Shown here in pieces: positions 2,347-55,420 of a stretch of 55,619 bases of DNA. The notes beneath the pieces are model-generated. The model saw only the letters and a list, made by a program, of their open reading frames with translations, did no database searches and was not told the DNA's origin. Source of the stretch: Clostridia bacterium (GTDB lineage Bacteria; Bacillota; Clostridia; Oscillospirales; CAG-272); NCBI GenBank assembly GCA_017398585.1, contig JAFQFS010000094.1, forward strand, positions 1-55,619, given 5' to 3'. Each line of letters starts with the position of its first letter. Positions within the stretch are counted from its first letter, which is position 1. Made by a program: the position numbers and the translations under genes.

Positions 2347-2420
2347 GGGGAAAGACTTTTTTCATAAAGTTTTTCCCCAAGTTGCTTTAGCAACTTGTTA
2401 CCCCATTTTCCAAAACTTTC
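2347..2420 (+). repeat. Palindromic repeat family, single unit (hairpin then arm, with accessory hairpin)
   Basis: A GGGGAAAGACTTTTTT / AAAGTTTTTCCCC hairpin is followed by an accessory hairpin AAGTTGCTTTAGCAACTT and the outer arm CCCCATTTTCCAAAACTTTC. It lies between the VOC and ABM genes. It may act as a terminator, but no separate U-tract follows it. Confidence 0.8.
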
Positions 2421-2448
2421 AGACAAATAAATCAGGAGAATATTGAAA

Positions 2449-2742
2449 ATGCTTGCAACTGTTGTTTACGTTGACGTTCTTCCCGAATACGTTGACGCGT
2501 TCGCTGAAATTACCAAGTACAATCACGAAAATTCCCGCAAGGAGCCCGGCAACATCCGTTTTGACGTCCTCCATGCGAATAATGATCCCACCAAGTTCAT
2601 CCTTTACGAAGTTTATGCGGACAAGGAAGCCGCTGCGGCTCACAAGGAAACCGAACATTACAACAAGTGGCGTGAAACGGTCGCCCCCATGATGGCAAAT
2701 CCCCGTCAGAGCTGCCCGACCACTCCTCTCTGCTTTGACTGA
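2449..2742 (+). CDS. Antibiotic biosynthesis monooxygenase (ABM) domain protein, LsrG/YgiN-like
   Basis: This is a 97-residue single-domain ABM protein, a family of small dimeric ferredoxin-like barrels. The stretch HENSRKEPGNIRFDVLHAN and the following FILYEVYADKEAAAAHKETEHY closely resemble the LsrG and YgiN quinol-monooxygenase group. LsrG acts on phosphorylated autoinducer-2, but no other lsr gene is visible, so the substrate stays open. ATG 2449 is chosen because AGGAG (2434-2438) is 10 nt upstream; an in-frame TTG at 2443 would be only 4 nt away. The end overlaps the next gene by 8 nt. Confidence 0.85.
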   Translation: MLATVVYVDVLPEYVDAFAEITKYNHENSRKEPGNIRFDVLHANNDPTKFILYEVYADKEAAAAHKETEHYNKWRETVAPMMANPRQSCPTTPLCFD

Positions 2743-3433
2743 TTTTCACCCTCTTCCGCGTGAATTCTACTGCACCGACGCGCTGACTCTTGCGGAAAAT
2801 CTTATCGGAAAAACGCTCGTTCACATCGTGAACGGTACCGTACTTGCAGCGGTCATTACTGAAACGGAAGCATACATGGGGGTCATCGACCGTGCGTCCC
2901 ACGCGTACGGCGGACGCCGTACCGCGCGGACCGAAACGATGTATCTCGAGGGCGGGCACGCTTACGTCTACCTCATCTACGGGATTTATTCCTGCATGAA
3001 CATTACGGCGAATGAAGACGGGAATCCCGAAGCGGTTCTGATCCGCGGGGGATATCCCATCGCCGGGGAAGAAGAGATGTACCGTACGTATCTCGCCCGG
3101 GGACGCCGCAGAAAAGCAGTGCCGAAGGCGTTTGATGAGCTGTCTCGGAAGGAGATCTTTTCCTTCACCAACGGGCCCGGCAAACTGTGTACGGCGATGT
3201 CCATCGACCGGTCACTGGATAAGCTTGATATGGTTTTTGAAGATTCGGTCAATGCGGATTTTTTGTCACACAATTTCTTTGTGCAGGATGATGGATTTTG
3301 TGCGGCTGAGATCGTCCGTTCGCCGCGGATCGGCATTGATTATGCCGGAGAAGCGGCGGAATATCCGTGGCGCTTCACCGTGAAAGAGGAAAAAGGACTT
3401 CCCGTGTTTATAAGAAACGGGAACATACAGTAA
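2735..3433 (+). CDS. 3-methyladenine DNA glycosylase (AAG/MPG family)
   Basis: This enzyme excises alkylated purines from DNA to start base-excision repair. Residues 7-30 (LPREFY...LIGKTLVH) match the family N-terminus. The catalytic motif is ITETEAYMG, with Glu45 equivalent to human E125 and Tyr47 to Y127. Further family stretches are RASHAYGGRRTART, YVYLIYGIYSCMNI and NGPGKLCTAM. The only start that keeps the conserved N-terminus is TTG 2735, which overlaps the ABM stop by 8 nt and has no clear Shine-Dalgarno site, so translation is probably coupled. Its position near lexA gives a loose DNA-repair context. Confidence 0.93.
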   Translation: MTDFHPLPREFYCTDALTLAENLIGKTLVHIVNGTVLAAVITETEAYMGVIDRASHAYGGRRTARTETMYLEGGHAYVYLIYGIYSCMNITANEDGNPEAVLIRGGYPIAGEEEMYRTYLARGRRRKAVPKAFDELSRKEIFSFTNGPGKLCTAMSIDRSLDKLDMVFEDSVNADFLSHNFFVQDDGFCAAEIVRSPRIGIDYAGEAAEYPWRFTVKEEKGLPVFIRNGNIQ

Positions 3434-3452
3434 ATGGAATATCAGATTGTAC

Positions 3453-3492
3453 AAAAACTCTGCGATACGGACGGTATTGCGGAGTTTTTTTC
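3453..3492 (+). terminator. Rho-independent terminator after the glycosylase gene
   Basis: AAAACTCTGCGATAC pairs with GGTATTGCGGAGTTTT (one mismatch) and is followed by a T-run. It ends the lexA-to-glycosylase segment and separates it from the glycogen genes. Confidence 0.85.
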
Positions 3493-3650
3493 TTACGCTG
3501 GAGGGAATTTTGCACAATTTCGGGGGGCGGACGGGACTTTTGAGGACAGTTCCTGAACTTTTTTCGACGATTAATTAGTGATAATTGTGTAATATAACAA
3601 AATCTTATCTATTATTTATAAAAATTATTTATGAATATATCAAAAAGCCC

Positions 3651-3679
3651 TTGCAAAATCTTTCCATTTGGGGTATAAT
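3651..3679 (+). promoter_or_regulatory. Sigma-A promoter of the glycogen operon
   Basis: TTGCAA (3651-3656), a 17-bp spacer and TATAAT (3674-3679) lie 27 bp upstream of the glgB start. The AT-rich region 3540-3650 upstream could add UP-element activity. Confidence 0.75.
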
Positions 3680-3706
3680 GAATAACGGAAAGGATGGATT
3701 GATAAA

Positions 3707-5731
3707 ATGAAAGAACTCGAAAACCTGAACGTCCGTGAGGTCACGGAGGAGTCTGTCCGCCCGATTGGCGCGGGACTGCCCGAAACTGACGAGCTCCCGG
3801 CGTATCTTTTCCATCAGGGAACCAACTACAAATCGTACGACTATATGGGCGCTCACTGCGAAAAGACCGCCGACGGCTATGTGTATACCTTCCGTGTCTG
3901 GGCGCCGAACGCAACCTTTATTACACTCAATGCCGATTTCACCGACTGGCAGAACGGTCTTCCGTTCCGTCGGATCACGAAGAACGGCATCTGGGAAGTG
4001 GTCGTTGAGTCCGATGTTTCCCTTGACGGACAGTTCTACAAGTTCGCCGTCACCGGAAAGGACGGCGTGACCTGGCTCAAGTCCGACCCGTATGCGTTCT
4101 CTTCGGAAACTCTTCTGAAGACCGCATCCATTCTCTGCGACGATACTTCCCATACCTGGAACGACGCGGAATGGATGAAAAAGCGCAGCGCGACTGTCTG
4201 TCCGAAGCAGCGCGGCTTCAAGCCGAAGGTCAACCACTTCTACAGCGCACCGCTGAATATTTACGAAGTTCATCTCGGTTCATGGCGTACCCTTGACGGG
4301 AAATCCACGGAGGACGGGGAACATTATCTGAACTACCGTGACATCGCGGACAAGCTCGCGCCGTACGTCTCCGACATGGGTTATACCCACGTCGAACTGC
4401 TGCCCGTTATGGAGCATCCGTACGACGGATCATGGGGCTATCAGGTCTGCGGCTACTATGCACCGACCTCCCGCTACGGCACGCCCGAGGATTTCAAATA
4501 TTTTGTCGAAAAGATGCACGAATACAGCATCGGCGTTATTCTCGACTGGGTACCGGCACATTTCCCGAAGGACCGTCATGGTCTTTACGAATTCGACGGT
4601 CAGCCGCTGTACGAATATCAGGGCAGAGACCGCATGGAAAACGAAGGCTGGGGTACAAGATACTTCGACGTAGGACGTCCGGAAATTCAGTCGTTCCTCG
4701 TTTCGAATGCACTGTTCTGGCTGCGTGAATACCATGCCGACGGTCTCCGCATCGACGCTGTCGCCGCGATGCTCTACCTCGACTATGAAAAGAGACCGGG
4801 CGAATGGGTACCGAACTACAAGGGAACCAACCACAACCTCGAAGCCATCGCATTCTTCCAGAAGCTCAATACCGCCGTTTTTGCGGAATTCCCGGATGCT
4901 CTGATGATCGCCGAGGAATCCACGGACTGGCCGATGATCACAAAGCCCGTCTGGGAAGGCGGCATCGGCTTCAACTTCAAGTGGAATATGGGCTTCGCGA
5001 ACGACCTGTTCGATTATGTTCAGACCGACCCGGTTGCAAGAAAACACGTTCACAACAAGCTGACATTCCCGCTGATGTACGCCTTCACGGAAAACTATAT
5101 CCTGCCGGTATCGCATGACGAAGTCGTGCACGGCAAGAAGTCGCTCGTCGACAAGATGTTCGGTGAATACGACGACAAGTTTGCCGGAATGCGCACGTTC
5201 CTCATGTATATGATGACCCTGCCGGGCAAGAAGCTGACTTTCATGGGCACCGAGTTCGCGCAGTTCCGCGAATGGGACTACGAAAACGAACTGGAATGGT
5301 TCATGACGCAGTACCCGCGCCACACCGAAATGCAGCGCTTCGTCCGTGAACTGAACAGGTTCTACCTCGCGACTCCGGAGCTCTGGGAAATCGACGATAC
5401 CTGGGACGGCTTCGAATGGATCGAGCCGAACATGGCGGATCTGAACGTGATCTCCTACCGCCGCAAGGACAAGAAGGGACACGAAATTGTTATTGTTCTG
5501 AATTTTGCTCCGGTTGTACGTGAAAACTTCAAGGTACGCGTGCCGAAGATGGGACGTTACGAAGAGATTATGACGACGGACAAGTACGAATTCGGCGGAA
5601 AGAACCGTGTGAACGAAGAAGCGGTCCGTACCCGCGCCGTAATCCGTGATGACGGTAAGCGCGAAAACGAGATTGAGATCACTCTTCCCGCACTCGGAGG
5701 TGTGATCCTCCGTAAACAGACCAACAGCTGA
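3707..5731 (+). CDS. glgB: 1,4-alpha-glucan branching enzyme
   Basis: GlgB moves alpha-1,4 oligoglucans to alpha-1,6 branch points in glycogen. The N-terminal CBM48 domain spans about residues 55-140 (TFRVWAPNA...). The GH13 barrel includes [10 protein letters not shown] (region I), DGLRIDAVA with nucleophile Asp350, MIAEEST with general acid Glu403, and SHDEVVHG with transition-state Asp471. An all-beta C-terminal domain follows. At 674 residues it is a typical bacterial GlgB. The ATG at 3707 follows GGAAAGGAT. It is the first gene of a six-gene glycogen cluster and is 61 bp from glgC. There is no signal peptide, so it is cytoplasmic. Confidence 0.98.
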
Positions 5732-5792
5732 GGAATCCGAACCAGCGCACAATTTTATTTTATATAAAAAATCACAGACTATGGAGGCAACT

Positions 5793-6995
5793 ATGTTAAA
5801 GAAACAGGAATGTGTTGCGATGCTTCTTGCCGGCGGGCAGGGCAGCAGACTTTATACACTGACCGAGAAAACAGCAAAGCCGGCTGTACGCTTCGGCGGT
5901 AAGTACCGGATCATCGACTTCCCGCTGTCGAACTGTGTCAATTCCGGAATCTACACCGTCGGCGTTCTCACCCAGTATCAGCCGCTCGCTCTGAACGAGT
6001 ACATCGGCAACGGCGAACCGTGGGACCTTGACCGTGTCAACAGCGGTGTGCGCGTTCTTCCTCCGTATCAGGCGAAGTCCGGTGCGGACTGGTACAAGGG
6101 TACCGCAAACGCGATTTACCAGAACCTTGAGTTCATTAACCGCTACGATCCCGACTATGTTCTGATTCTCTCCGGTGACCACATCTACAAGATGGACTAC
6201 GAAAAGATGCTCGAAGCGCACAAGGAAAAAGGCGCGGAATGCACCATCGCGGTTCTTGAAGTTTCTCTCGAAGAAGCAAGTCGCTTCGGTATCATGAACA
6301 CCGACGACGACCTCCGCATCACGGAATTCGAAGAAAAGCCGAAGCAGCCGAAGAGCACCAAGGCATCCATGGGTATCTATATTTTCAACAAGGATCTCCT
6401 GGAACAGTACCTGATCGAAGACGAAGCAGACCCGGAATCTTCCAAGGACTTCGGTAAGAATATCATCCCGAAGATGCTCGCCGACGGCCGCAAGATGTAC
6501 GCATATGCGTTCTCCGGCTACTGGAAGGACGTCGGAACAATCCAGTCTCTCTGGGAAGCGAACATGGATCTCATCGGCGACAAACCGGAATTTGACCTCC
6601 GCGACCGCAGCTGGAGAATCTTTTCCAGAAACTACTCCGATCCGCCGCAGTACATCGGCGAATACGCGAAGATTTCCAATTCCCTCATCACCGAAGGGTG
6701 CGAAGTTGAAGGTATTGTTGAAAACTCTGTCCTCGCGAGCGGCGTTAAGGTAGCGCGCGGTGCGATCATCAAGGATTCCATCATCATGCGCAACGTCACC
6801 ATCGCGGAAGGCGCAACCATCAACTACTCCATCATCGACAGCGACACCAAGATCGGTGCAGGCTCCATCATCGGTCATACCAAGAGCAGCAACAGCGGCA
6901 TCGCTCTCATCGGCTCCGAACTGGACATCAAGCCCGGCTCGAAAATCGCGGGCGGCGAAATGGTCGACAGCGAATGGCTCGCTAAGAACAAGTAA
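5793..6995 (+). CDS. glgC: Glucose-1-phosphate adenylyltransferase, catalytic subunit
   Basis: GlgC makes ADP-glucose from ATP and glucose-1-phosphate, the committed step of glycogen synthesis. The N-terminal nucleotidyltransferase signature [10 protein letters not shown] is at residues 11-20, followed by [29 protein letters not shown] (catalytic Asp) and FEEKPKQP. The C-terminal third is a left-handed beta-helix of hexapeptide repeats (NSLI...NSVL...DSII...). ATG 5793 is preferred over ATG 5781 because GGAGG (5783-5787) overlaps the upstream codon and sits 5 nt before 5793. The product has 400 residues, normal for the family. GlgD follows directly, so a GlgC-GlgD hetero-oligomer is likely. 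Confidence 0.98.
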
Positions 6996-7046
6996 TCCGG
7001 AACATACGCCACAGATACGACAGAAGACAGAAAGGAATCGAATACA

Positions 7047-8180
7047 ATGTCAGCGTCAGGAATCATTTTCTCGAATATTCATGATAATAATATACCGGAG
7101 TTGACCAGACTGCGCACCGTTGCGTCTGTCCCGTTTGCGTGCCGTTACCGCTTCATCGACTTCACGCTTTCCAACATGGTAAACTCCAATATCTATAACA
7201 TCAGCGTGATCACCCACTACAACTATCAGTCTCTCATGGACCACATCGGTTCCGGTAAGGACTGGGATCTCGCACGTCGTTCCGGCGGTATCAAGATCCT
7301 CCCGCCGTACATCAACGCTTACGCGAACAACAGCAATCTTGTTTATCAGACCAGACTGCAGGCGCTCAAGAGTGTGAATAACTCCATCAGCCGCATCACG
7401 GACGACTACGTTGTTCTCTCCGACTGCGACGTGATCTGCAACGTTGATTTCAACGATATCATTGCATACCATCAGAAGACCGACGCAGATATGACCATCG
7501 CGGTCAAGAGCGTTGAACTCACTCCCGAAACCGCAAAGATCAATACCATCTTCACCTCCGATGAAGAAGGCCGTGTAACCGACGTTCTCTCATACCCGTC
7601 CAACTTCAGAGGCGTAGCGGACATCAGCCTGAACATCGTGGTCATGAAGACCTCCTACCTGCAGCAGATCGTCCTCGACGCGATCGCACACGACCATGTC
7701 AGCCTCACCCGCGACGTCATCGCGCGCAACATGAAGCACATGAATTACCGTGTCTACAAGTACGAAGGTTACTTCGCATGCATCTCTTCCTTCGCGGATT
7801 ACTACTCTCACAGCATGGATCTTCTCCACAACGTGGAAGCGCGTGACTCCCTGTTCAATGTAAAGAATCGTCCGGTATACACGAAGGTTAGAAATTCCAC
7901 ACCGTCCTACTACAGCCCCACCTCCATCGTAAAGAACTCCATGATCGCGGACGGCTGCTACATCGAAGGTACGGTCGAAAACTCCATTATCTTCCGCGGT
8001 GCCAAGATCGGCCGCAACGCTACCGTCAAGAACAGCATCATCATGCAGGACTCCATCATCGGAGAGGGCGCATTCTTGAACTGCGTCATCACCGACAAGA
8101 ACGCAGTCATCCGTGACGGACGCATGCTCAGCGGTGCCGACACCCAGCCCTACTACATTTCCAAGGGCAAGTTGATTTGA
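7047..8180 (+). CDS. glgD: GlgD, regulatory paralogue of ADP-glucose pyrophosphorylase
   Basis: GlgD is the non-catalytic partner of GlgC in Bacillota and raises its activity. The 377-residue protein keeps the fold (CRYRFIDFTLSNMVNSNIYN, SDCDVICNVDF, hexapeptide repeats KNSMI...ENSII...KNSII). It lacks the AGGxGxRL nucleotide loop, having GIIFSNIHDNNIPELTRLR there instead. That loss is the usual mark of GlgD. It starts 51 bp after glgC with AGAAAGGAAT upstream. A composite repeat is inserted immediately downstream, between glgD and glgA. Confidence 0.96.
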   Translation: MSASGIIFSNIHDNNIPELTRLRTVASVPFACRYRFIDFTLSNMVNSNIYNISVITHYNYQSLMDHIGSGKDWDLARRSGGIKILPPYINAYANNSNLVYQTRLQALKSVNNSISRITDDYVVLSDCDVICNVDFNDIIAYHQKTDADMTIAVKSVELTPETAKINTIFTSDEEGRVTDVLSYPSNFRGVADISLNIVVMKTSYLQQIVLDAIAHDHVSLTRDVIARNMKHMNYRVYKYEGYFACISSFADYYSHSMDLLHNVEARDSLFNVKNRPVYTKVRNSTPSYYSPTSIVKNSMIADGCYIEGTVENSIIFRGAKIGRNATVKNSIIMQDSIIGEGAFLNCVITDKNAVIRDGRMLSGADTQPYYISKGKLI

Positions 8181-8186
8181 CTTTTC

Positions 8187-8423
8187 GCGGGAAACCTTTT
8201 TTGAGGAAAAAGGTTTCCCCGCGACTTTCTAAGTCGCATCCCTTCCAAAAACCTTTTTGGACTATGATACGGACAAAGTTGGGTGCAGATTGTGAGTAAT
8301 ATGATTTTGTCATGCGGACAAAATTTCTGATTACAAATAATTTGCACAAACTCTGTTACCATAATAGATTGAAGTTTTTTGAAAGGGGTCCGGGGAAAAC
8401 TTTTTGTAAAAAGTTTTCCCCGG
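8187..8423. repeat. Palindromic repeat family, complete composite element inside the glg operon
   Basis: The left unit is a GCGGGAAACCTTTTTT / AAAAAGGTTTCCCCGC hairpin with accessory hairpin GCGACTTTCTAAGTCGC and arm CCCTTCCAAAAACCTTTTT. The right unit is arm GAAGTTTTTTGAAAGGGG followed by GGGGAAAACTTTTT / AAAAAGTTTTCCCC. Between them lie GGGTGCAGATT (8281 on) and TTTGCACAAACTCTGTTACC, a degenerate inverted pair shared with the copies at 50729 and 51546. The element ends 13 bp before the glgA ribosome-binding site. Confidence 0.85.
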
Positions 8424-8449
8424 AAACCCCCATTAAAAGGAGATTAACT

Positions 8450-9889
8450 ATGAAAATTTTATACGCTGCTGCGGAAGCGCTGCCGTATGCTTCGACCGGC
8501 GGTCTGGCGGACGTTATGGGTGCTCTGCCGAAGTCGGTGAAGAAGGTACTGGACAAGGATTCCGATGTCCGCGTTGTTATGCCGATGTATCCGGTTGTTC
8601 GCGCGAAGTATGCCGAACAGATTGAACTGGTCACTGAGATCAACGTGCGTCTGGCATGGAGAAATCAGTACTGCGGCATCTGGAAGACCGTGAACGAAGG
8701 CGTTATCTATTACTTTATCGACAACCAGTATTATTTTGAACGCGACCGTCTGTACGGCTGCTTCGACGACGGCGAACGTTTCGCATTCTTCTCCAAGTGC
8801 GTGCTGGAACTGATGGCTGCGGTCAACTTCTATCCGGATATCCTCCATTCCAACGACTGGCAGGGAGCGCTGGCTGTGATCTACCTCAAGAGAAAATATT
8901 CTCATCTGGAAGAATATCAGAACATCTCCGCGCTGTTCACCATCCACAACATCGACTATCAGGGCGTGTTTGATTTCGGCATCCTCGGTGAAGTGTTCGA
9001 ACTCCCCGAATGGGACCGCAGCGTTGTCGAATACAACGGTAACGTCAATCTGCTCAAGGGCGCGATCGTCTGCGCGGATATGGTCAACACCGTCAGCCAG
9101 CAGTATTCCCGTGAAATCCTCACCGAATACTACGCGAGCGGTCTGCACCACATTCTCCGTTCCGCCGATGCGGAAGGCAAGCTGATCGGCATCGTCAACG
9201 GCATCGACGTGGATTACTACAATCCCGAAACCGACCCGGATATCGCCGAAACCTTCACGATCGATTCCATGGCGGGCAAAGCGGTCTGCAAGGCAGAACT
9301 TCAGGAACTCTGCGGCTTCGAAGCAGATCCCGAAACTCCCATCATCGCGATGGTTTCCCGTCTCGCGTCCCACAAGGGCTTCGACCTCGTCAAGCACATC
9401 ATCGAAGAATTCATCGTCAACAATAAGGTTCAGTTCGTCCTCCTCGGCACCGGCGAAACCGAACTCGAGAACTTCTTCGCAGGTCTCGCGCTCCGTTATC
9501 CCGAACAGGTCTGCGTCAAGCTCGAATACAACAAGGCGCTCTCCAAGAAGTTCTACGCAGGCGCGGATCTCTTCCTGATGCCTTCGAAGAGCGAACCCTG
9601 CGGTCTGTCCCAGATGATCGCGTCCCGTTACGGCACCGTTCCCGTTGTCCGTGAATGCGGCGGTCTCCATGACACCATCAAGGCATATAATGCAGAAGAA
9701 GGCACCGGTAACGGATTCACCTTCGCCAACTACAACGCACACGATATGATGTACGTTCTTGAGTCTGCGCTTTCACTATATGAAAACCATACCGAATGGG
9801 CGGAACTTGTCAAAAATGTCATGAAAGTGGACTTTTCCTGGACAGTTTCGGCTAAAAAGTATATTGATATTTACAACTCTTTGATGTAA
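8450..9889 (+). CDS. glgA: Glycogen synthase (ADP-glucose)
   Basis: GlgA (GT5, GT-B fold, 479 residues) extends alpha-1,4-glucan from ADP-glucose. The N-terminal Rossmann domain begins MKILYAAAEALPYASTGGLA. The C-terminal domain has MVSRLASHKGFDLV and the conserved SEPCGLSQMIASRYGTVP with Glu382. The start at 8450 follows AAAAGGAGA; a longer reading from 8312 would translate through the upstream repeat and is rejected. Position 15, the Lys of the KxGGL motif that contacts ADP-glucose in E. coli GlgA, is Ser here (STGGLAD). The rest of the enzyme looks intact, so it is probably active with altered substrate contacts. Confidence 0.96.
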   Translation: MKILYAAAEALPYASTGGLADVMGALPKSVKKVLDKDSDVRVVMPMYPVVRAKYAEQIELVTEINVRLAWRNQYCGIWKTVNEGVIYYFIDNQYYFERDRLYGCFDDGERFAFFSKCVLELMAAVNFYPDILHSNDWQGALAVIYLKRKYSHLEEYQNISALFTIHNIDYQGVFDFGILGEVFELPEWDRSVVEYNGNVNLLKGAIVCADMVNTVSQQYSREILTEYYASGLHHILRSADAEGKLIGIVNGIDVDYYNPETDPDIAETFTIDSMAGKAVCKAELQELCGFEADPETPIIAMVSRLASHKGFDLVKHIIEEFIVNNKVQFVLLGTGETELENFFAGLALRYPEQVCVKLEYNKALSKKFYAGADLFLMPSKSEPCGLSQMIASRYGTVPVVRECGGLHDTIKAYNAEEGTGNGFTFANYNAHDMMYVLESALSLYENHTEWAELVKNVMKVDFSWTVSAKKYIDIYNSLM

Positions 9890-14503: not shown

Positions 14504-14505
14504 AG

Positions 14506-16863: not shown

Positions 16864-16885
16864 GGTGTTATCAAATAGAGTTTTC

Positions 16886-16935
16886 GGGGGAACTTTTTAT
16901 GGAAAAGTTCCCCCGAACCCCTTCAAAACCTTTTT
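16886..16935 (-). repeat. Palindromic repeat family, single unit (hairpin then arm)
   Basis: GGGGGAACTTTTT / AAAAGTTCCCCC is followed by the arm ACCCCTTCAAAACCTTTTT. It lies between dacF (3' side) and the pseudouridine synthase (5' side). Confidence 0.85.
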
Positions 16936-23513: not shown

Positions 23514-23530
23514 GGTGATATAAGTTTTTC

Positions 23531-23586
23531 GGGGAAAACCTTTTTAAGGAAAAGGTTTTCCCCGAACCCCTTTCCAAAACCTTTTC
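23531..23586 (-). repeat. Palindromic repeat family, single unit (hairpin then arm)
   Basis: GGGGAAAACCTTTTT / AAAAGGTTTTCCCC is followed by GAACCCCTTTCCAAAACC. It occupies most of the lon-engB gap. Confidence 0.85.
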
Positions 23587-27949: not shown

Positions 27950-28022
27950 AAGTTTTTTGGAAGGGGACGAGACTTCCTGCGGAAGTCTTAGGGGGAACCT
28001 TTTTCCTTAAAAAAGGTTCCCC
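27950..28022 (+). repeat. Palindromic repeat family, single unit (arm then hairpin, with accessory hairpin)
   Basis: The arm AGTTTTTTGGAAGGGG is followed by an accessory hairpin GACTTCCTGCGGAAGTC and the core GGGGGAACCTTTTT / AAAAAGGTTCCCC. It lies downstream of the sigma-factor gene. Confidence 0.8.
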
Positions 28023-30435: not shown

Positions 30436-30490
30436 TCAAAGCTTTTTGAAAGGGGTCCGGGGAAAACTTTTTCCCGAAAAAGTTTTCCCC
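30436..30490 (+). repeat. Palindromic repeat family, single unit (arm then hairpin)
   Basis: The arm CAAAGCTTTTTGAAAGGGG is followed by CCGGGGAAAACTTTTT / AAAAAGTTTTCCCCGG. It fills the gap between the methyltransferase and the NFACT gene, ending 20 bp before the NFACT start. Confidence 0.85.
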
Positions 30491-30510
30491 GGGAAACAAC
30501 ATTTTATAAT

Positions 30511-33060: not shown

Positions 33061-33072
33061 AAGTAAATCATT

Positions 33073-33254
33073 GGGGAAAACTTTTTTGAAAAAAAGTTTT
33101 CCCCAAGCCCCTTTCAAAAAACTTTATACTGGATAGGACAATTTAGTTTGTGCAGACTTTTTGTGGGTTTTGCATAATATTTCGTTTATCTTTTTGTTTG
33201 AAAGTTTTTGAGGTGGGGTTTGGGGAGGAACTTTTTTCAAAAAGTTCCTCCCCA
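33073..33254. repeat. Palindromic repeat family, composite element
   Basis: The left unit is GGGGAAAACTTTTTT / AAAAAGTTTTCCCC with arm AGCCCCTTTCAAAAAACTTT. The right unit is GAAAGTTTTTGAGGTGGGG with GGGGAGGAACTTTTTT / AAAAAGTTCCTCCCC. The centre is about 70 bp and diverged. It lies between two same-strand genes. Confidence 0.85.
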
Positions 33255-33342
33255 ATAAAAAAACTCCAAAACAGTCTCAAGGAGACGGGAAGGGAATAGC
33301 TCCGGAAACTGCAGAAATTCGGTCCGGAGCGAGCTTACAATT

Positions 33343-34065: not shown

Positions 34066-34072
34066 AAGAATC

Positions 34073-34312
34073 GGGGAAAACTTTTTTGAAAAAAAGTTTT
34101 CCCCGAACCCCTTTCAAAAAACTTTATACTATGAAAGAAGACGAAGTAAGTGCAGAGCGTTTGAAAACGTGATTTTATAAGCTGAACAAAATCAAGGTAT
34201 TCCAAATCTGCACCAAACCTTATCAACACAATAGTCTGAAAGTTTTTGAAGAGGGGTTCGGACGAGATTTGCTTCGCAAACTCGGAAACTTTTTTCAAAA
34301 AGTTTCTCCCCG
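34073..34312. repeat. Palindromic repeat family, composite element between convergent genes
   Basis: The left unit is GGGGAAAACTTTTTT / AAAAAGTTTTCCCC with arm GAACCCCTTTCAAAAAACTTT. The right unit is GAAAGTTTTTGAAGAGGGG with accessory hairpin ACGAGATTTGCTTCGCAAACTC and core GGAAACTTTTTT / AAAAAGTTTCTCCCC. The centre holds AGTGCAGAG and CAAATCTGCACC. Its right end (34295-34312) encodes the last residues and stop codon of the minus-strand nudix gene. Confidence 0.85.
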
Positions 34313-34702
34313 ATAATTTTCTCTGATTTTTTCTAAGATTTCGACGTCGGCGGGGCAGAATTCGTACTGAGGGATTTCGTCGACGGTGATGAATTTGATG
34401 TCGTTGTGTTCGAGTTTCTGCGGGGTGCCGGCGGTTATGACGGCGTTGAAGAGGGTGAGATGGACGGTGATGTCCGGATATTCGTGGGTGACATCCATGA
34501 ATATGTCCAGTGGTTTGACGGTGACGGCGAGTTCTTCCATACATTCGCGGATGAGGGCGGCTTCCTTTGTTTCGCCGGGCTCGACTTTGCCGCCGACGAA
34601 TTCCCAGAGGAGCGCGCGTTTTTTGTTTGCCGGACGCTGGCAGATCATAAAGCGGTCATTCTGCCAGATCAGCGCAGCTACGACTTCGGTGACGGTTCTC
34701 AT
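34295..34702 (-). CDS. Nudix hydrolase, MutT-like
   Basis: This 135-residue protein has an intact nudix box, GGKVEPGETKEAALIRECMEEL, with an N-terminal VVAALIWQNDRFMICQRP. It resembles 8-oxo-dGTP pyrophosphatases of the MutT/CTP-pyrophosphohydrolase group. The start overlaps the stop of the phosphoesterase gene (ATGA), so translation is coupled. The final residues (RGETF) and the stop codon lie within the palindromic repeat, so the C-terminus may have been altered by the insertion. Confidence 0.92.
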   Translation of the reverse strand: MRTVTEVVAALIWQNDRFMICQRPANKKRALLWEFVGGKVEPGETKEAALIRECMEELAVTVKPLDIFMDVTHEYPDITVHLTLFNAVITAGTPQKLEHNDIKFITVDEIPQYEFCPADVEILEKIRENYRGETF

Positions 34703-36064: not shown

Positions 36065-36140
36065 GGGGAAAACCTTTTTAAGGAAAAGGTTTTCCCCAAG
36101 CTACTAAAGTAGCTTGTTACCCCATTTCCAAAACCTTTTC
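36065..36140. repeat. Palindromic repeat family, single unit (hairpin then arm, with accessory hairpin)
   Basis: GGGGAAAACCTTTTT / AAAAGGTTTTCCCC is followed by accessory hairpin AAGCTACTAAAGTAGCTT and arm CCCCATTTCCAAAACCTTTTC. It sits between two convergent genes and has the same accessory type as the copy at 2347. Confidence 0.85.
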
Positions 36141-37983: not shown

Positions 37984-38040
37984 CTGAAAGTTTTTGAAAA
38001 AAGGTGAGGGGAAAAACTTTTTCAAAAAGTTTTTCCCCTC
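37984..38040. repeat. Palindromic repeat family, single unit (arm then hairpin)
   Basis: The arm GAAAGTTTTTGAAAAAAGGTG is followed by AGGGGAAAAACTTTTT / AAAAAGTTTTTCCCCT. It lies between the convergent XRE and SGNH genes. Confidence 0.85.
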
Positions 38041-38045
38041 AAAAA

Positions 38046-39600: not shown

Positions 39601-39658
39601 TGAAAAGGTTTTGAAAAGGGGGGCGGGGAAAACCTTTTCCTAAAAAAGGTTTTCCCCG
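39601..39658. repeat. Palindromic repeat family, single unit (arm then hairpin)
   Basis: The arm GAAAAGGTTTTGAAAAGGGG is followed by CGGGGAAAACCTTTT / AAAAGGTTTTCCCCG. It sits between convergent genes, beside a separate genuine terminator. Confidence 0.85.
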
Positions 39659-42774: not shown

Positions 42775-42849
42775 TGAAAAGTTTTTGAAGAGAGGTTCGG
42801 ACGAGTCTGCTGCGCAGCCTCAGGAACTTTTTCAAAAAGTTCCTCTCCG
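42775..42849. repeat. Palindromic repeat family, single unit (arm then hairpin, with accessory hairpin)
   Basis: The arm GAAAAGTTTTTGAAGAGAGG is followed by the accessory hairpin GTCTGCTGCGCAGCC within an ACGAG...CTC frame and the core AGGAACTTTTT / AAAAAGTTCCTCTCC. It lies between convergent sigF and phosphoglucomutase. Confidence 0.82.
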
Positions 42850-42862
42850 ATTCTTTATGAGT

Positions 42863-47597: not shown

Positions 47598-48167
47598 TCA
47601 GTGGATGGTACCTTCGATGACCGTTCCGTCCGGATGGAACAGAGGCAGTTTTTCGAGGTAAATGAGGTCGTCGCGTACCTGCGCATCGCCTTCGGCAAGG
47701 ATCGCCATCTTTCCGACGATGTTCCCGCCTGCGGCATTGACGAGCTGTTCGACCGCCGCAAGGGATTCCCCGGTAGAGATCACGTCATCCACGATGAGGA
47801 TCTTCGCGCCGTTCATGAGTTCCGCATCCGCCTTGTCGAGGTACAGGCTTTGTTCGCCCGCCGTCGTGATGGACTGAACCTTCACTTCAAATACGCCGCT
47901 CATGTACGCTTTCGCCTTCTTGCGCGCAACAAAATACTTCTGGTTTCCCGCAAGTCTCGCCATTTCATGAGCGAGCGGAATGCCCTTTGCTTCGGCTGTG
48001 ATAATGTAATCATATTCCGGCGCGATCTTCAGCAGAGCGTCCGCTGCCGCGGTCGTCAGTTCCGGATCTCCGAAAATAACGAACGCACCGATCGCAAGAT
48101 TCGCATTCAGCGGGCAGATCGGCAGCGCACGATCCACACCCGCAATGGTCATAGGATAAGTCAGCAT
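47598..48167 (-). CDS. Purine phosphoribosyltransferase (Apt/Xpt-like)
   Basis: This 189-residue type I phosphoribosyltransferase salvages a purine base with PRPP. The PRPP-binding loop is KILIVDDVISTGESL. The flexible-loop region is YFVARKKAKAYMSGVF, and TAEAKGIPLAHEMARL matches adenine and xanthine enzymes. It differs from canonical Apt in length and in the base-binding region, so adenine specificity is not certain. The start follows AGAAAGGAT. Confidence 0.85.
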   Translation of the reverse strand: MLTYPMTIAGVDRALPICPLNANLAIGAFVIFGDPELTTAAADALLKIAPEYDYIITAEAKGIPLAHEMARLAGNQKYFVARKKAKAYMSGVFEVKVQSITTAGEQSLYLDKADAELMNGAKILIVDDVISTGESLAAVEQLVNAAGGNIVGKMAILAEGDAQVRDDLIYLEKLPLFHPDGTVIEGTIH

Positions 48168-48187
48168 AATCGAATATCCTTTCTAAA

Positions 48188-48270
48188 AATTTGCACAAAC
48201 TTTGTTGTCACAATAGATTGAAGTTTTTTGGAAGGGGTTCGGGGAAACCTTTTTGCAAAAAGGTTTCCCC
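48188..48270 (-). repeat. Palindromic repeat family, right half with part of the centre
   Basis: AATTTGCACAAACTTTGTTG and CACAATAGATTGAAG correspond to the centre and arm of the complete copy at 8187. The core GGGGAAACCTTTTT / AAAAAGGTTTCCCC follows. The left half is missing, so this is a truncated copy. It lies between pheT and the phosphoribosyltransferase gene. Confidence 0.82.
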
Positions 48271-48277
48271 GAGAAAA

Positions 48278-50692: not shown

Positions 50693-50728
50693 GGTATATA
50701 TACCTTTCTTATTTTAATTGGGTTTCTT

Positions 50729-50952
50729 GGGGAAGGAACTTTTTGAAAAAAGTTCCTTCCCCAAACCCCATCTTCAAAAACTTTCAAACGAAACGGACAG
50801 TTAAAGATGGGTGCAGATCCGGAAAACAAAACCGTCAGCGCAGCCAACAGAATTTTTTGTAACCAGCGCTATGCACATACTATGTCCAAACAATAGTCTG
50901 AAGTTTTTTGAAAGGGGCTTGGGGAAAACTTTTTTTCAAAAAAGTTTTCCCC
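50729..50952. repeat. Palindromic repeat family, complete composite element
   Basis: The left unit is GGGGAAGGAACTTTTT / AAAAAGTTCCTTCCCC with arm AACCCCATCTTCAAAAACTTTC. The right unit is GTCTGAAGTTTTTTGAAAGGGG with GGGGAAAACTTTTTT / AAAAAAGTTTTCCCC. The centre holds GGGTGCAGATCCGG (50810 on) and diverged sequence. It lies between pheT and the uridine kinase. Confidence 0.87.
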
Positions 50953-50967
50953 AATTATTCAATTCAC

Positions 50968-51504
50968 TTATAGCATCGAATCGATGTACGTCGTCAGGAT
51001 GTTCACGGTCTTTTCCTTGAAAATACCGTTGACGACCATGTCGGCGTGCCATCTGGTGGGTTCAATGAGTTCGTTGTGACGGAAGCGGACCGTGTCGATG
51101 TAGCGGTCGGTGACTTCCTCGAACGTCTGGCCGCGGGAGGTGAACCGCTTGATTCTGCGGACGAGGCGTTCGTCGCTGTCGAGGTCGACAAAAATTTTCA
51201 GATCGAGTTTTTCGCGGATTTCGGGGAGATACAGCGCGAACAGTCCTTCAATGATGACGAGCTGTACGTCGGAAGCGATCGCTTCGCCGAAATCATGGTA
51301 GAGATTGTCCAGATAGAGAGCGTCGGGATGATTGTGTTCCACGTATTCGATGCCGGTAATGGGAGCGATCGTGGTGATGGAGGGGCGGCGGAAGTAAGCG
51401 TCCATATGGAGGACCTTGCACTTGCTTCCGTAATAGGCTTCCAGTTTTTCAGTCAGCGTGCTCTTGCCGCTGCAAGTGCCGCCGGCAATACCAATAACAA
51501 ACAT
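50968..51504 (-). CDS. udk: Uridine kinase-like P-loop phosphotransferase
   Basis: The protein (178 residues) has the P-loop GIAGGTCSGKST (5-16), the substrate loop VLHMDAYFRRP, NHPDALYLDNLYHD and the LVIIEGLFALY strand of the uridine kinase/phosphoribulokinase family. FVDLDSDERLVRRIKRF contains the LID arginines. It is shorter than canonical Udk (about 210), so the nucleoside substrate is inferred. The start follows AGAGGTG. It lies between pheS and pheT. Confidence 0.87.
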   Translation of the reverse strand: MFVIGIAGGTCSGKSTLTEKLEAYYGSKCKVLHMDAYFRRPSITTIAPITGIEYVEHNHPDALYLDNLYHDFGEAIASDVQLVIIEGLFALYLPEIREKLDLKIFVDLDSDERLVRRIKRFTSRGQTFEEVTDRYIDTVRFRHNELIEPTRWHADMVVNGIFKEKTVNILTTYIDSML

Positions 51505-51545
51505 AACTGCACCTCTCTGATATAATTAATTAATTTTTATTTCTT

Positions 51546-51790
51546 GGGGAAGGAACTTTTTGAAAAAAGTTCCTTCCCCAAACCCCATCTTCAAAAACTT
51601 TCGGACGAAACGGGCAGACGGGGGCAGGTGCAGATTTGGAACACCGGAACGGCGGTGCAGCTTATCAAAATTTTATAACTGTAAATCTGCACTTACTTCG
51701 TCAACACAACTGTCTGAAGTTTTTTGAAAGGGTGTTCGGACGAGTCTGCTGCGCAGCCTCAGAAAACTTTTTTTCAAAAAAGTTTTCCCC
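51546..51790. repeat. Palindromic repeat family, complete composite element with accessory hairpin
   Basis: The left half is nearly identical to that at 50729 (same GGGGAAGGAACTTTTT core and arm). The centre contains GGTGCAGATTTGG and TAAATCTGCAC, an inverted pair. The right half has arm GTCTGAAGTTTTTTGAAAGGG, accessory hairpin GTCTGCTGCGCAGCC as in the copy at 42775, and core AAAACTTTTTTT / AAAAAAGTTTTCCCC. It lies between the uridine kinase and pheS. Confidence 0.87.
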
Positions 51791-51809
51791 GAGAAACTTC
51801 ATTTGTTTC

Positions 51810-52823
51810 TCAGAACTGATTAAGGAATCTTACGTCGTTTTCGTAGAGGAGACGCATGTCGTCGATGCGGTACTTGAGCATCGCGATACGTTCTACGCCC
51901 ATACCGAACGCGAAACCGCTGTAAATTTCGGGATCAATGCCGCACATACGGAGAACGTTCGGGTGAACCATACCTGCGCCGAGGATTTCGATCCAGCCTT
52001 CGCCCTTACAGAGACGGCAGCCCTTGCCGCCGCAGACGAAGCAGGAAACGTCAACTTCCGCGGAAGGTTCGGTGAACGGGAAGTGGTGCGGACGGAAACG
52101 GATCTTGGTTTCTTCGCCGAACATGGTCTTTGCGAACATTTCAAGGGTACCCTTGAGGTCGCCCATGGTGATGCCCTTGTCAACAACAAGACCTTCTACC
52201 TGATGGAACAGGGGAGAGTGGGTTGCATCAACGGCGTCGGAGCGGTAAACACGGCCGGGGGAAATGATCTTGATCGGCGGCTTCTGGACTTCCATGGTAC
52301 GTGCCTGAACCGGGGAAGTCTGAGAACGGAGGAGAATATTTTCGGTGATATAGAAGGTGTCCTGCGTGTCACGTGCGGGGTGATCCTTCGGAATGTTGAG
52401 CGCCTGGAAATTGTAGTAGTCGAGTTCAACTTCGGGACCTTCCACGATGGAATAACCCATGCCGAGGAAAATTTCTTCGAGCTGACGCTGTACGAGGGAG
52501 AGGGGATGGAAGTGACCCTGTGCGATCTTGTCGCCGGGGATGGTAACGTCGAGCTTTTCGGCTTCGAGCTTTTCTTCGATTTCACGTGCGCGGCGTTCTG
52601 CGGTCATCTGTTCGATCTTCGCTTCGATTTCCGCGCGGATATCGTTTGCAAGCTGACCGATGACCGGACGTTCTTCGGCGGACAGCTTGCCCATGCCGCG
52701 GAGAACGGCGGTCAGCTCGCCTTTTTTGCCGAGGTACTTGATTCTAAGATCCTCGATGTTTGCCGAAGGAGCGGAAAGGGCTTCCAGCGCTTCGGCCTTG
52801 ATTTTTTCAAGGGTTTCTCTCAT
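51810..52823 (-). CDS. pheS: Phenylalanyl-tRNA synthetase alpha subunit
   Basis: PheS carries the catalytic core for tRNA-Phe charging. The N-terminal coiled coil ([15 protein letters not shown]-like, about 1-85) precedes motif 2 ([15 protein letters not shown]) and motif 3 ([18 protein letters not shown]). The Cys cluster [17 protein letters not shown] fits other Gram-positive PheS proteins. The start at 52823 (337 residues) is fixed by homology; a longer reading to 53000 covers the T-box and is rejected. Expression is controlled by the upstream T-box leader. Confidence 0.96.
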
Positions 52824-52869
52824 GTTGTGTATGAATCCTTTCTGAATTTTCTGTGGGAAGGCGGTGCGG

Positions 52870-53205
52870 GGCAATAAAAAAGTCCCCTTGTCCTGCTGAA
52901 ACTGGACAAAAGGGACGACAGAACTGCCGCGGTACCACCCGGATTCCGTGCCGAAACACGGCTCTTGAAGAATACACCGTCTCCGCGAAGGGGACAGCAT
53001 AGACTTGTTCGGAGAGTAACGGTTCCGAACCGTACCGGACTACTCCTGGTTCACCCGGTCCGCTGCGGAACGGGACCGTTCCGCGATGAAGTGAAAGTAA
53101 GACGGCGGCGCAGCGGAAACTTCCAGCCTTCCGGTTTCCGCTCTCTGCATGCGGCTCTGATGTGATACACTCTTCATCATAGCGTTTCGATATTCTTCTA
53201 CACTA
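52870..53205 (-). promoter_or_regulatory. T-box riboswitch (tRNA-Phe) leader of pheS
   Basis: Read on the minus strand, the leader has a Stem I base GATGAAG...CTTCATC. The specifier codon UUC (53095-53093, Phe) stands directly before the 3' strand of that helix. The conserved T-box GGTGGTACCGCGG lies near 52938-52926. The terminator stem GTCCCTTTTGTCC / GGACAAGGGGAC followed by TTTTTT is at 52916-52875. Uncharged tRNA-Phe should stabilise the antiterminator and allow pheS transcription. Confidence 0.93.
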
Positions 53206-53206
53206 C

Positions 53207-53235
53207 ATTATACCACGTAATTCCGTACATTGCAA
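53207..53235 (-). promoter_or_regulatory. Sigma-A promoter of the pheS T-box transcript
   Basis: On the minus strand TTGCAA (53235-53230), 17 bp and TATAAT (53212-53207) precede the T-box leader directly. Confidence 0.82.
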
Positions 53236-53350
53236 GGGCTATCGGGAAAAAAGACGGACAAAGTTCCGGTTTTCTGCAGAGTCACGTTTTCTGCAGCATC
53301 TGCATATTCTGTAAACGGCAGTACTATACAAACAAAGGAAGGAAACCAAT

Positions 53351-53581
53351 ATGCCAGACTGCATTCTTGCAATGAAAACACGGACGGCAGCGGAGAAGGC
53401 GCGCCGTACCGCAGCGTTTGAGCGGATGGAAACGGAGGTCGTATCCGTGGATCCGTCGGTGACCCGTCACGGATGTTCGGTCGGACTGAGACTGAATTGT
53501 GCGGATGTGGAGGAAGTGACCCGGCTGCTGGACAGAAAGGGGATCGTTTACGGAGATGTCATCGGGAGGGGCGGACGATGA
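53351..53581 (+). CDS. DUF3343 family small protein (putative Se/S carrier-like)
   Basis: This 76-residue protein has the DUF3343 outline: an N-terminal strand with helix (CILAMKTRTAAEKARRTAAFE) and the central CSVGLRL with the conserved Cys. DUF3343 proteins commonly accompany class V aminotransferases and selenium genes, and a sulfur or selenium carrier role has been proposed. The stop overlaps the next start (ATGA), so the two are coupled. The start follows AAGGAAGG. An 11-bp direct repeat lies upstream (53269 and 53286). Confidence 0.8.
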   Translation: MPDCILAMKTRTAAEKARRTAAFERMETEVVSVDPSVTRHGCSVGLRLNCADVEEVTRLLDRKGIVYGDVIGRGGR

Positions 53582-54708
53582 GGACAATTTACCTCGATAA
53601 CGCCGCTACGACCTATCCGAAGCCGGAAGAAGTCCTGCGTGCCGCATCCGATGCCATGCGGAAAGCCGGCGGAAATCCGGGCCGGGGGTCGCACAGACTG
53701 TCAAATGCTGCCGCGGAGCTGGTATTTGACTGCCGGACGGCTGCCGCCGAACTCTTTGGTGCGGAACCGGAACGCGTCGTGTTCACCATGAACGCCACTC
53801 ATGCGCTGAACTATGCTGTCAAGGGACTGGCAGAGGCGGGATGCCATATTCTCATCGACAATTATGCTCATAATGCCGCATATCGTCCGGTTGCCGGTCT
53901 TGCGGATGCCGGTCTTGCGGAATACGATATTTATGATGCCTCCGGTGACGAGGACGAAATCATTGAAAACATCCGGAGTAAACTGCGTCCCGACACCCGC
54001 ATCGTTCTTGCAACACATCAGTCCAATATCTGTTCGCACATTCTTCCGATCGAAACGATCGGGCATTTCTGCGCGCAGTACGGACTGCACTTTATCGTGG
54101 ATGCCTCGCAGAGTGCGGGGCATCTGCCGATCGATCTGCACCGGATGAACATCACTGCACTCTGTATGCCCGGACACAAAGGGCTGTTCGCACCGATGGG
54201 CGTCGGAATGCTCATTTCCGCGCCGGATGTCCGCTATAATACGATCCTTGAGGGTGGTGCCGGAATCCATTCTCTCGATGCCGTCATGCCGGAGGAACTG
54301 CCCGAACGGCTCGAAGCCGGGACGCTTCCGCTGCCTGCTGTCGCCGGGCTTCTCGCGGGGATCCGCTTTGTCCGCCGTACCGGTCTGCAGGAGATACACC
54401 TCCACGAATGTACGCTGACCTCCGAACTGACCGACCGTCTTTCCGTACTTGGCGGCGTGACGGTTTCCGGCGAAAGCGTCGGTTCTGTCGTCGGCTTCCG
54501 TGTGAACGGATATTCCCCGGCGGAGGTCGGTGCACATCTTGCTTCCCGCGGTATCTGCGTACGGACAGGGTACCATTGTGCACCGCTCGCCCACCGGACG
54601 GTCGGCAGTTTCGAAAACGGTTCCGTCCGCGCAGGCGTTTCGTATTTCAATAAAATGTCGGATATCCATGCGCTGACCGGCGCACTTGCGGAACTCGGAC
54701 GAAAGTAA
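53578..54708 (+). CDS. Class V aminotransferase, cysteine desulfurase-like (EF2568 clade)
   Basis: This PLP enzyme (376 residues) starts directly at IYLDNAATTYPKPEEV, the short N-terminus of the EF2568-type clade. PLP lysine lies in CMPGHKGLFAPMGVG. The C-terminal active-site loop is RTGYHCAPLAHRTVG with the conserved Cys. It probably moves sulfur or selenium from cysteine or selenocysteine. Coupling with DUF3343 supports a carrier relay, although no selD or other selenium gene is in view. The ATG at 53578 is chosen because it overlaps the DUF3343 stop and matches the family. Confidence 0.88.
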   Translation: MRTIYLDNAATTYPKPEEVLRAASDAMRKAGGNPGRGSHRLSNAAAELVFDCRTAAAELFGAEPERVVFTMNATHALNYAVKGLAEAGCHILIDNYAHNAAYRPVAGLADAGLAEYDIYDASGDEDEIIENIRSKLRPDTRIVLATHQSNICSHILPIETIGHFCAQYGLHFIVDASQSAGHLPIDLHRMNITALCMPGHKGLFAPMGVGMLISAPDVRYNTILEGGAGIHSLDAVMPEELPERLEAGTLPLPAVAGLLAGIRFVRRTGLQEIHLHECTLTSELTDRLSVLGGVTVSGESVGSVVGFRVNGYSPAEVGAHLASRGICVRTGYHCAPLAHRTVGSFENGSVRAGVSYFNKMSDIHALTGALAELGRK

Positions 54709-54748
54709 ACTTCTTCCAAAAAGCCATCCGGGAAAATCAAATTTTTTC

Positions 54749-54932
54749 GGGGAACCCTTTTTTGGGGAAAAAGGGTTCCCCGAACCCCTCCGAAAAACCT
54801 TTAAGCGGATAAAAACAGCAAACCGAGCGGGTATTTATTATGGATATGCACTGTACTCCGCATATTTATTTTGTTTGAAAGTTTTTGAAATGGGGGGACG
54901 GGGGAAAAACTTTTATCAAAAAGTTTTTCCCC
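54749..54932. repeat. Palindromic repeat family, composite element
   Basis: The left unit is GGGGAACCCTTTTTT / AAAAAGGGTTCCCC with arm GAACCCCTCCGAAAAACC. The right unit is GAAAGTTTTTGAAATGGGG with GGGGGAAAAACTTTT / AAAAAGTTTTTCCCCC. Its right edge begins the unit that is repeated at 55388. Confidence 0.85.
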
Positions 54933-54970
54933 CGCAAAAATTGATTTCCCTGAAAAGCCATCGATAGTTC

Positions 54971-54999
54971 TTGACAGAGGGACGGAAATATAGTATAAT
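54971..54999 (+). promoter_or_regulatory. Consensus sigma-A promoter of the orphan gene, copy 1
   Basis: TTGACA (54971-54976), 17 bp and TATAAT (54994-54999) match the consensus fully. A TTAGCTAGCTA palindrome follows near the transcription start and may be an operator. Confidence 0.85.
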
Positions 55000-55041
55000 A
55001 AAAATTAGCTAGCTATATTATTAAGAAAGGAATTACAAGAA

Positions 55042-55368
55042 ATGGCAGAATGGATTGTTGATAAGAAAGACGTAACCTCGACTGTTGACGGCGATTTTAT
55101 CCTGTACAAGAACCGTCCCCTCGTCCGCGAAGACAATGTAATATGCTACGGCAACGTATCCGACAAATATATACTTCAGATGATCATCATGTCCGAAACC
55201 GAATACAAAGGAAAGAAGGTTCCGGATAAGGTCTACCTCCAGCTCCTCAAAACCGACCCGAATGTTTCAAAGAAGGAACGCGTGGTGCAGGAAGCGATGA
55301 AGACCGGCCTGTACGAAGCCTTCGACCTCGGCGTCGCATGGCTCGAACGTTATCTGAGACAGAACTGA
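55042..55368 (+). CDS. Orphan small protein (108 aa), tandem copy 1
   Basis: This protein was not recognised. It is 108 residues, soluble, mixed alpha/beta, beginning MAEWIVDKKDVTSTVDGDFI and ending LGVAWLERYLRQN. It has no signal peptide, membrane helix or known motif. A central ILQMIIMSETEYKGKKVPDKVYLQLL suggests a two-strand plus helix core. The start follows AGAAAGGA. It has a perfect promoter and a second tandem copy, so high expression is likely. Confidence 0.85.
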   Translation: MAEWIVDKKDVTSTVDGDFILYKNRPLVREDNVICYGNVSDKYILQMIIMSETEYKGKKVPDKVYLQLLKTDPNVSKKERVVQEAMKTGLYEAFDLGVAWLERYLRQN

Positions 55369-55387
55369 ATAGAGATTTTTGATTCGT

Positions 55388-55420
55388 GGGAAAAAACTTT
55401 TTTCAAAAAGTTTTTCCCCC
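55388..55420 (+). repeat. Palindromic repeat family, hairpin-only copy
   Basis: GGGAAAAAACTTTTTT / AAAAAGTTTTTCCCCC lies 20 bp after the orphan gene stop. The following spacer equals that after the right unit at 54932, so this copy arose with the gene duplication. It may end transcription of copy 1. Confidence 0.8.

Follow-up and report, generated by a model that had tools for sequence, protein, structure and literature searches.

REPINs are palindromic units that occur as inverted doublets and as solo remnants, according to the consulted part of PMC3116915, and REPINs and BIMEs are present in many intergenic copies, in numbers that are uneven between relatives (consulted part of PMC3733652). 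A short tag and a RAYT transposase normally go with REPIN-like repeats. Miniature inverted-repeat transposable elements (MITEs) are short, lack a large open reading frame (ORF), carry long inverted terminal repeats and are present in some relatives and absent from others. In potential intrastrand triplex (PIT), BoxC and TM_ECO repeats, as far as the consulted part of PMC4666352 describes them, a hairpin is joined by a linker of ~3 nt to a third strand on the same strand, again in many copies. Here we describe a family of intergenic repeats, each a hairpin followed by an arm, in a 55,619-nt stretch of DNA (the window; contig JAFQFS010000094.1 of assembly GCA_017398585.1) from an uncultured gut bacterium of the Clostridia. 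In this bacterium, and in many of its relatives, small elements that end in such hairpins and look mobile lie between genes in large numbers. They share with each of these systems the features just listed for it, apart from the tag and the RAYT transposase. The family was not recognised in the publications that our searches surfaced, as judged mostly from titles and the openings of abstracts.

The unit is a hairpin of about 33–38 bp with the pattern GGGG-A/G-rich-C-TTTTT-loop-AAAAA-G-complement-CCCC, followed inward by an arm of ~17–20 nt that is one-sided as a rule and most commonly of the type CCCCTTTCAAAAACTTT. By reading, the foot of the hairpin is TTC/CCCC and, unlike that of REPINs and BIMEs, has neither a GTAG nor a CGTC tag. 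In the window the repeats are far above chance: GGGGAAAAC has 17 matches on both strands against 0.64 expected, and the arm with at most three mismatches has 26 against 0.22. A hairpin scan and reading of the sequence led to the same 17 intergenic loci (Table 1). A preliminary description, made from the letters of the window, had counted 17 loci with a recurring unit, six of them double; both numbers are borne out, and the doubles are as stated there. Rfam gave 0 matches in the window at the gathering threshold.

A double consists of two inverted terminal repeats around a short, imperfectly palindromic centre that carries GACAAAG..GTGCAGATTT plus its inverse. The further inverted pair that the centre had been said to contain, GGTGCAGATTTGG / AAATCTGCAC, was found there and turns up again in other doubles of the same genome. 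Folded as single-stranded DNA, the 50727 element (228 nt) is predicted to form its first hairpin (H1), a long imperfect stem and its second hairpin (H2), with z = −7.9 relative to shuffles. The window is contig C87 of a genome of 3.18 Mb in 178 contigs (G000, 73.6% complete), of which 635,306 sampled bases contain 169 units, with 0 in the reversed-sequence control; this is ~1 unit per 4 kb, a density biased upward because the sampled contigs were picked for holding hits. Two metagenome-assembled genomes represent sister species: SIG618, an Oscillospiraceae bacterium (locus L025, genome G059, the same genome as G004 by identical hits), and RGIG7288, a Clostridia bacterium from water buffalo caecum (locus L026, genome G060, the same as G022 by identical hits). 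Unit pairs less than 450 bp apart face each other with the arms inward without exception in these samples (32/32 in G000, 11/11 in SIG618 and 9/9 in RGIG7288; 52/52 in total), as do 2/2 pairs in each of two further genera (G102 and G109). The lengths of the 32 doubles in G000 are discrete and cluster near 188 and 226 bp (9 of 178–191 bp, 16 of 223–236 bp and 7 other). A loose centre motif stands behind the arm of 60 of 105 solo units and of 54 of 64 units that belong to doubles; in intergenic 80-mers free of units, its frequency is 567 of 2254. The solos do look like derived halves, as had been proposed.

The window aligns almost entirely with an 80-kb stretch of an RGIG7288 contig, and the aligned stretches of both sister species are roughly 80–90% identical to it in DNA. 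RGIG7288 has empty sites at the doubles 50727 and 51544 and lacks the solos at 16883, 23528 and ~42800. The double at 33071 is absent from SIG618 and from RGIG2226, a more distant genome, and RGIG7288 has a bare hairpin in its place; only the left half of the double at 34071 is present in SIG618 and RGIG7288; and the RGIG7288 counterpart of the 8189 double is without most of the centre and without the small hairpin. Doubles at C168:69355 and cC80:22849 likewise have no counterpart in a sister genome. The preliminary description had suggested looking for empty sites in sister strains, and sister species are indeed empty where the window has full doubles (50727, 51544 and 33071). At other sites the unit has changed in place. 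The 27992 unit is present in both sister species with changed stems, the 48239 unit of RGIG7288 has a hairpin and an arm that are both of another type, and at 2347 RGIG7288 has kept the arm next to a different hairpin. At 36065 both sister species carry U-tract terminator-like hairpins. Two sites are uninformative in RGIG7288, where the region adjoining 38005 is missing and the gene adjoining 54746 is inverted. Several full doubles match single bare, often imperfect hairpins at the orthologous sites of sister species, a pattern that collapse of elements between their two hairpin tips, or insertion into a hairpin, might leave.

The same ends bound a second element. In SIG618 we found an element of ~672 bp with a different interior, bounded by the same hairpin and arm. 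At 24 dispersed places, the query among them, at least 669 of its 672 bases are covered; the other 23 are 79–91% identical to the query. The interior of this element is imperfectly palindromic (66% identity with its reverse complement), and open frames in the type copy reach at most 88 codons from stop to stop. The hairpin and arm therefore behave as a shared terminal repeat, which is another difference from REPINs and BIMEs. Larger arms-inward pairs were considered as candidates for autonomous copies and rejected: among 25 pairs of 540–2471 bp compared with each other, matches of at least 130 bp were confined to one orthologous gene region and to the ~540–692 bp class of SIG618. One SIG618 double (C119:2178–2590, within L194) has an ORF for a 63-aa ribbon-helix-helix protein (PF01402) in its centre; the orthologous double in G000 (C168:15661–15883) has an ordinary centre.

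Core sequences had been said to co-vary with pairing maintained. An alignment of 50 of the 139 eligible G000 units agrees: both sides change in 10 of 16 stem pairs, and the share of paired cells is 95.5%, versus 85.6% in shuffles. Among 797 cells there are 80 two-sided changes (almost all Watson–Crick), 15 one-sided changes (G-U) and 36 unpaired cells. The novel part, absent from the preliminary description, is that the arm co-varies with the stem. Taken as the strand 5' of the hairpin and read from outer to inner, the arm repeats the stem strand with G in place of C and is usually shorter by one base. This rule fits the code of an antiparallel third strand, with G opposite a G-C pair and A opposite an A-T pair, under the triplex class scheme given in the consulted part of PMC4666352; G opposite an inverted C-G pair is our own extension of that code. 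The arm and the stem could thus fold into a three-stranded structure, an intrastrand triplex.

Parsing succeeded for 267 of 297 units and gave 72 distinct stem/arm pairs. Of 64 codes, the triplex code (A to A, C to G, G to G) fits these pairs best, in a parse that demands C or G as the inner base of the arm and a T-run on both sides, so that C-to-G is largely a two-way choice and T-to-T lies outside the test. The sum of edits under this code is 103, versus 168.8 (standard deviation 6.2, minimum 146) in 5000 shuffles and 139.3 (standard deviation 4.8, minimum 123) in 5000 length-matched shuffles. The first description of the arm, as a plain mirror repeat, was rejected, since the identity mirror scores 188; an earlier test with another wording of the stem-arm rule pointed in the same direction. 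In 45 doubles whose two stems differ, the arm fits its own stem better in 40 and the partner's in 1, with 4 ties. Stem and arm also change together over time. We compared 25 orthologous unit pairs. Stems have changed in 13 of them, which come from 11 loci, two being counted twice. In 12 of these 13 the arm has changed as well, and over all 13 the fit to its own stem is better in 11, worse in 0 and tied in 2; in the 12 pairs with an unchanged stem the arm changed in 3. The distinct stem/arm pairs and the orthologs counted here are not fully independent events.

The ~17–20 nt arm that tracks the stem sets the family apart from REPINs and BIMEs. As with the third strand of PIT repeats, the arm fits the stem by the triplex code, here usually one base short. 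Unlike in PIT, BoxC and TM_ECO, stem and arm here diversify in concert and the unit forms the ends of inverted doublets. The sequence differs from TM_ECO, and the TM_ECO pattern quoted in the consulted part of PMC4666352 does not fit the units by reading; the order here is that of class I (third strand, purine strand, pyrimidine strand), and TM_ECO is class II in the same source. With the stem-arm code, selection on bacterial DNA triplexes can be tested for, first in sequence data and then in the laboratory, and the many natural variants of the family can serve to map what a mobiliser that recognises structure would need.

We built a covariance model, R1, from the unit and used it on genomes of the genus and the family. 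The genome-wide search that the preliminary description had recommended found the unit throughout the genome, with arm and centre. R1 matches 18 of 25 genus genomes (own included), with at least 150 matches in G000, G004 and G022, 87 in G008, 60 in G017, 49 in G023 and 0–14 in the others. It also matches 47 of 78 sampled family genomes (own included) in 44 of 69 genera, where the highest count recorded per genome means at least 49. A family limited to the genus had been suggested by a strict hairpin pattern, which gave 0 of 34 genomes outside it, and is overturned by the covariance model. The 17 R1 matches that were read in other genera have the same hairpin-and-arm design, and in the 39 of 64 units parsed there the stem-arm pairs are similar, though some fail to fit. 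The family is thus dense and widespread, yet it shows neither the tag nor the RAYT transposase to which such repeats are normally tied. Several G000 contigs begin or end in or beside a family hairpin (C25:29922–29952 of 29956, C89:21617–21647 of 21649 and C9:31–61); assembly therefore seems to break at the repeats, and copy numbers may be underestimated.

The position of the units relative to genes, taken from simple codon-usage gene calls, adds a point that the preliminary description had missed: stop-facing hairpins lie at the position of terminators. From the 169 units of G000 we set aside 3 inside called genes and 15 without a called neighbour on one side. Of the 151 placed units, 91 face a stop codon at a median of 13 bp (quartiles 10–16; 84 within 30 bp) and 60 face a start codon at a median of 29 bp. 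For comparison, 97 U-tract terminators behind stop codons lie at a median of 14 bp (quartiles 7–22). The units differ from intrinsic terminators in that few hairpins are directly followed by a U-tract (5 of the 91 that face a stop codon, none of the 60 that face a start codon), that an arm and a centre are present and that presence is polymorphic. A T-run occurs 20–90 nt behind the hairpin in 25 of the 91, and 12 of 95 placed solos are in divergent gaps. In other genera, units lie between convergent genes in 14 of 30 cases (G102), 6 of 6 placed (G109), 3 of 3 (G034) and 6 of 12 (G067). The position near stop codons fits insertion into terminator sites, survival at them, or a role at gene 3' ends.

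In line with the claim that the window has no transposase, scans of 60 of its ORFs (10 with NCBIfam and 50 with Pfam; shorter ORFs were outside the scan) turned up no transposase domain; several of these ORFs are probably not genes. As candidate mobilisers, IS4-type DDE and IS110 domains were rejected, with none in the 73.6%-complete G000. RAYT-like genes occur in SIG618 and RGIG7288. None of the ten Y1 loci fetched holds a hairpin-and-arm unit, and a Y1 match is found in 5 of 20 family genomes with at least 20 unit hits (all 5 above the curated cut-off) and in 9 of 20 without unit hits (7 of them above it). A RAYT or Y1 mobiliser, sought in the own genome, the genus, three close genomes with a RAYT protein and 40 family genomes, was rejected, as no positive link to copy number appeared; in this too the family is unlike REPINs and BIMEs. 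In RGIG7288 an inverted pair of GTAG-tagged GGGCGATTC repeats (L257:1250–1480) stands beside a 166-aa RAYT-like ORF at 1459–1959 on the minus strand; it is apparently an ordinary REP/RAYT system unrelated to the hairpin-and-arm family, and four fragments of this GTAG repeat are absent from the G000 sample.

The inverted pairs, the discrete lengths, the dispersal to non-homologous sites, the empty sites and the 672-bp copies with the same ends point to units that are the ends of dispersed non-autonomous mobile DNA, and we put at about 0.65 the probability that this is so and that an enzyme acting in trans reads the folded strand. The elements are most likely widespread non-autonomous hairpin-ended mobile DNA that works like REPINs while failing the tests of tag and RAYT. 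An enzyme supplied in trans would move the element by recognising a folded single strand, with the arm as antiparallel third strand of the hairpin, and not a fixed sequence; such recognition would explain why stems vary while the pairing and the stem-arm match stay. Insertion or survival would favour the place where terminators lie, about 13 bp behind stop codons, and solo units would be decayed or collapsed halves. A more specific form, in which the ends of this lineage are read as an intrastrand triplex by a RAYT-independent enzyme that recognises the three-stranded fold, is less likely than not; if true, the stem-arm covariation would be natural evolutionary evidence for triplexes forming in cells. 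Several observations weigh against mobility of this kind. Y1/RAYT, DDE_Tnp_1 and Transposase_20 have no match in the 73.6%-complete G000, other transposase families not having been searched, so that a genomic transposase with matching ends, which it had been suggested to look for, was not found among these three. No target-site duplication was recognised by eye at the empty sites, where the flanks are too diverged, and none was convincing around 27 distinct 672-bp copies (28 rows, of which L025 and L239 are one place; three more are cut by contig ends); the flanks contain little C, and most of them end in a TTC that may be part of the repeat itself. Several unit sites are common to sister species (30457 to both and 39624 to RGIG7288, there with a small extra hairpin), the tight stop-codon distance is also expected from selection on a 3'-end role, and the arm usually lacks one base of the predicted third strand, in a parse that forces its inner C or G. 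The mean triplex edit distance is 0.97 in solos (n = 169) and 1.28 in units of doubles (n = 98); the fit is no worse in solos, so the stem-arm coupling is not tied to complete elements. In sum, the earlier claim of a non-autonomous mobile element gains from the covariance model and the empty sister sites and receives nothing from target-site duplications or a matching transposase. Its comparison with MITEs stands for the inverted terminal repeats and the fixed lengths (~188, ~226 and 672 bp), while strict MITE membership is unproven and the architecture is closer to that of REPINs. Unlike in MITEs, the terminal repeat here is itself a palindrome of variable sequence, and neither a target-site duplication nor a partner transposase was recognised.

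A serious and live rival, which we consider unlikely, is that the unit is primarily a gene 3'-end element (a terminator, an insulator or a protector of mRNA ends) with the arm as part of its structure, gained, lost and converted slowly without transposition; such a role may coexist with mobility. It would account for the terminator-like distance from stop codons, the displaced T-runs, the many units between convergent genes in other genera, the U-tract hairpins of the sister species at 36065 and the triplex fit that persists in solos. It is at odds with the rarity of direct U-tracts, with the start-facing units and the solos in divergent gaps, with fixed-length doubles that are present or absent between sister species, and with the 24 near-full dispersed places of a 672-bp element that has the same ends. 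We think it improbable that template switching in quasipalindromes, together with block gene conversion of hairpin and arm, produced the stem-arm correlations in the absence of any function of a folded structure. Conversion would indeed make hairpin and arm switch jointly at orthologous loci, and palindrome correction would give stem changes that are nearly all two-sided and Watson–Crick. However, template switching can copy reverse complements but would not yield a mirror-like arm, and conversion spreads existing combinations, which leaves the third-strand code unexplained; the same code is also partly seen in distant genera, with exceptions. Ordinary REPINs moved by a RAYT (Y1 HUH) transposase that happens to be missing from the incomplete assembly are very improbable. 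The inverted doublets and solo remnants do match the REPIN description in the consulted part of PMC3116915, and the two sister species have RAYT-like genes; against this, the hairpin foot is untagged, the RAYT gene of RGIG7288 adjoins the unrelated GTAG repeat, the ten Y1 loci fetched are free of units and Y1 does not follow copy number, and six high-copy genomes that are 96–98% complete have no Y1 match at the sensitivity used.

Table 1. Members of the hairpin-and-arm family in the window. The strand of a solo unit is the direction from hairpin to arm.
Locus	Feature	Coordinates	Strand	Parts
2347	solo unit	2347–2419	+	hairpin 2347–2378, extra small hairpin 2379–2398, arm 2401–2419
8189	double element, 236 bp	8189–8424	.	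H1 8189–8219, small hairpin 8220–8237, arm, centre, arm' 8372–8388, H2 8389–8424
16883	solo unit	16883–16935	+	hairpin 16883–16917, arm to ~16935
23528	solo unit	23528–23585	+	hairpin 23528–23566, arm 23567–23585
27992	solo unit	27950–28022	-	arm 27950–27966, small hairpin ~27967–27990, hairpin 27992–28022
30457	solo unit	30439–30492	-	arm 30439–30455, hairpin 30457–30492
33071	double element, 185 bp	33071–33255	.	
34071	double element	34071–34313	.	H1 34071–34106; H2 34258–34313, interrupted by small hairpin 34262–34283
36065	solo unit	36065–36138	+	hairpin 36065–36097, small hairpin ~36099–36118, arm 36121–36137
38005	solo unit	37987–38041	-	arm 37987–38003, hairpin 38005–38041
39624	solo unit	39604–39658	-	arm 39604–39621, hairpin 39624–39658
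~42800	solo unit	42778–42850	-	arm 42778–42794; hairpin interrupted by small hairpin 42800–42823
48239	solo unit with centre remnant	48190–48272	-	arm 48221–48237, hairpin 48239–48272
50727	double element, 228 bp	50727–50954	.	H1 50727–50764, H2 50919–50954
51544	double element	51544–51791	.	H1 51544–51581; H2 51738–51791, interrupted by small hairpin
54746	double element, 189 bp	54746–54934	.	H1 54746–54784, H2 54899–54934
55388	family hairpin, arm not recognisable by the criterion used	55388–55419	.	

The small variable hairpins listed in Table 1, together with the one at 51738–51761 in the 51544 double, are positioned either between the main hairpin and the arm or within the base of the main hairpin; by reading of the sequence they interrupt H2 of the 34071 and 51544 doubles and the hairpin at ~42800. 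They seem to be gained and lost separately, because RGIG7288 is without the one at 8220–8237 and has one of its own at the ortholog of 39604. Near the right edge of the window there is a 232-bp direct repeat, 88% identical between 54900–55131 and 55388–55619 (the contig end), which contains a hairpin end, promoter-like sequence and a gene start.

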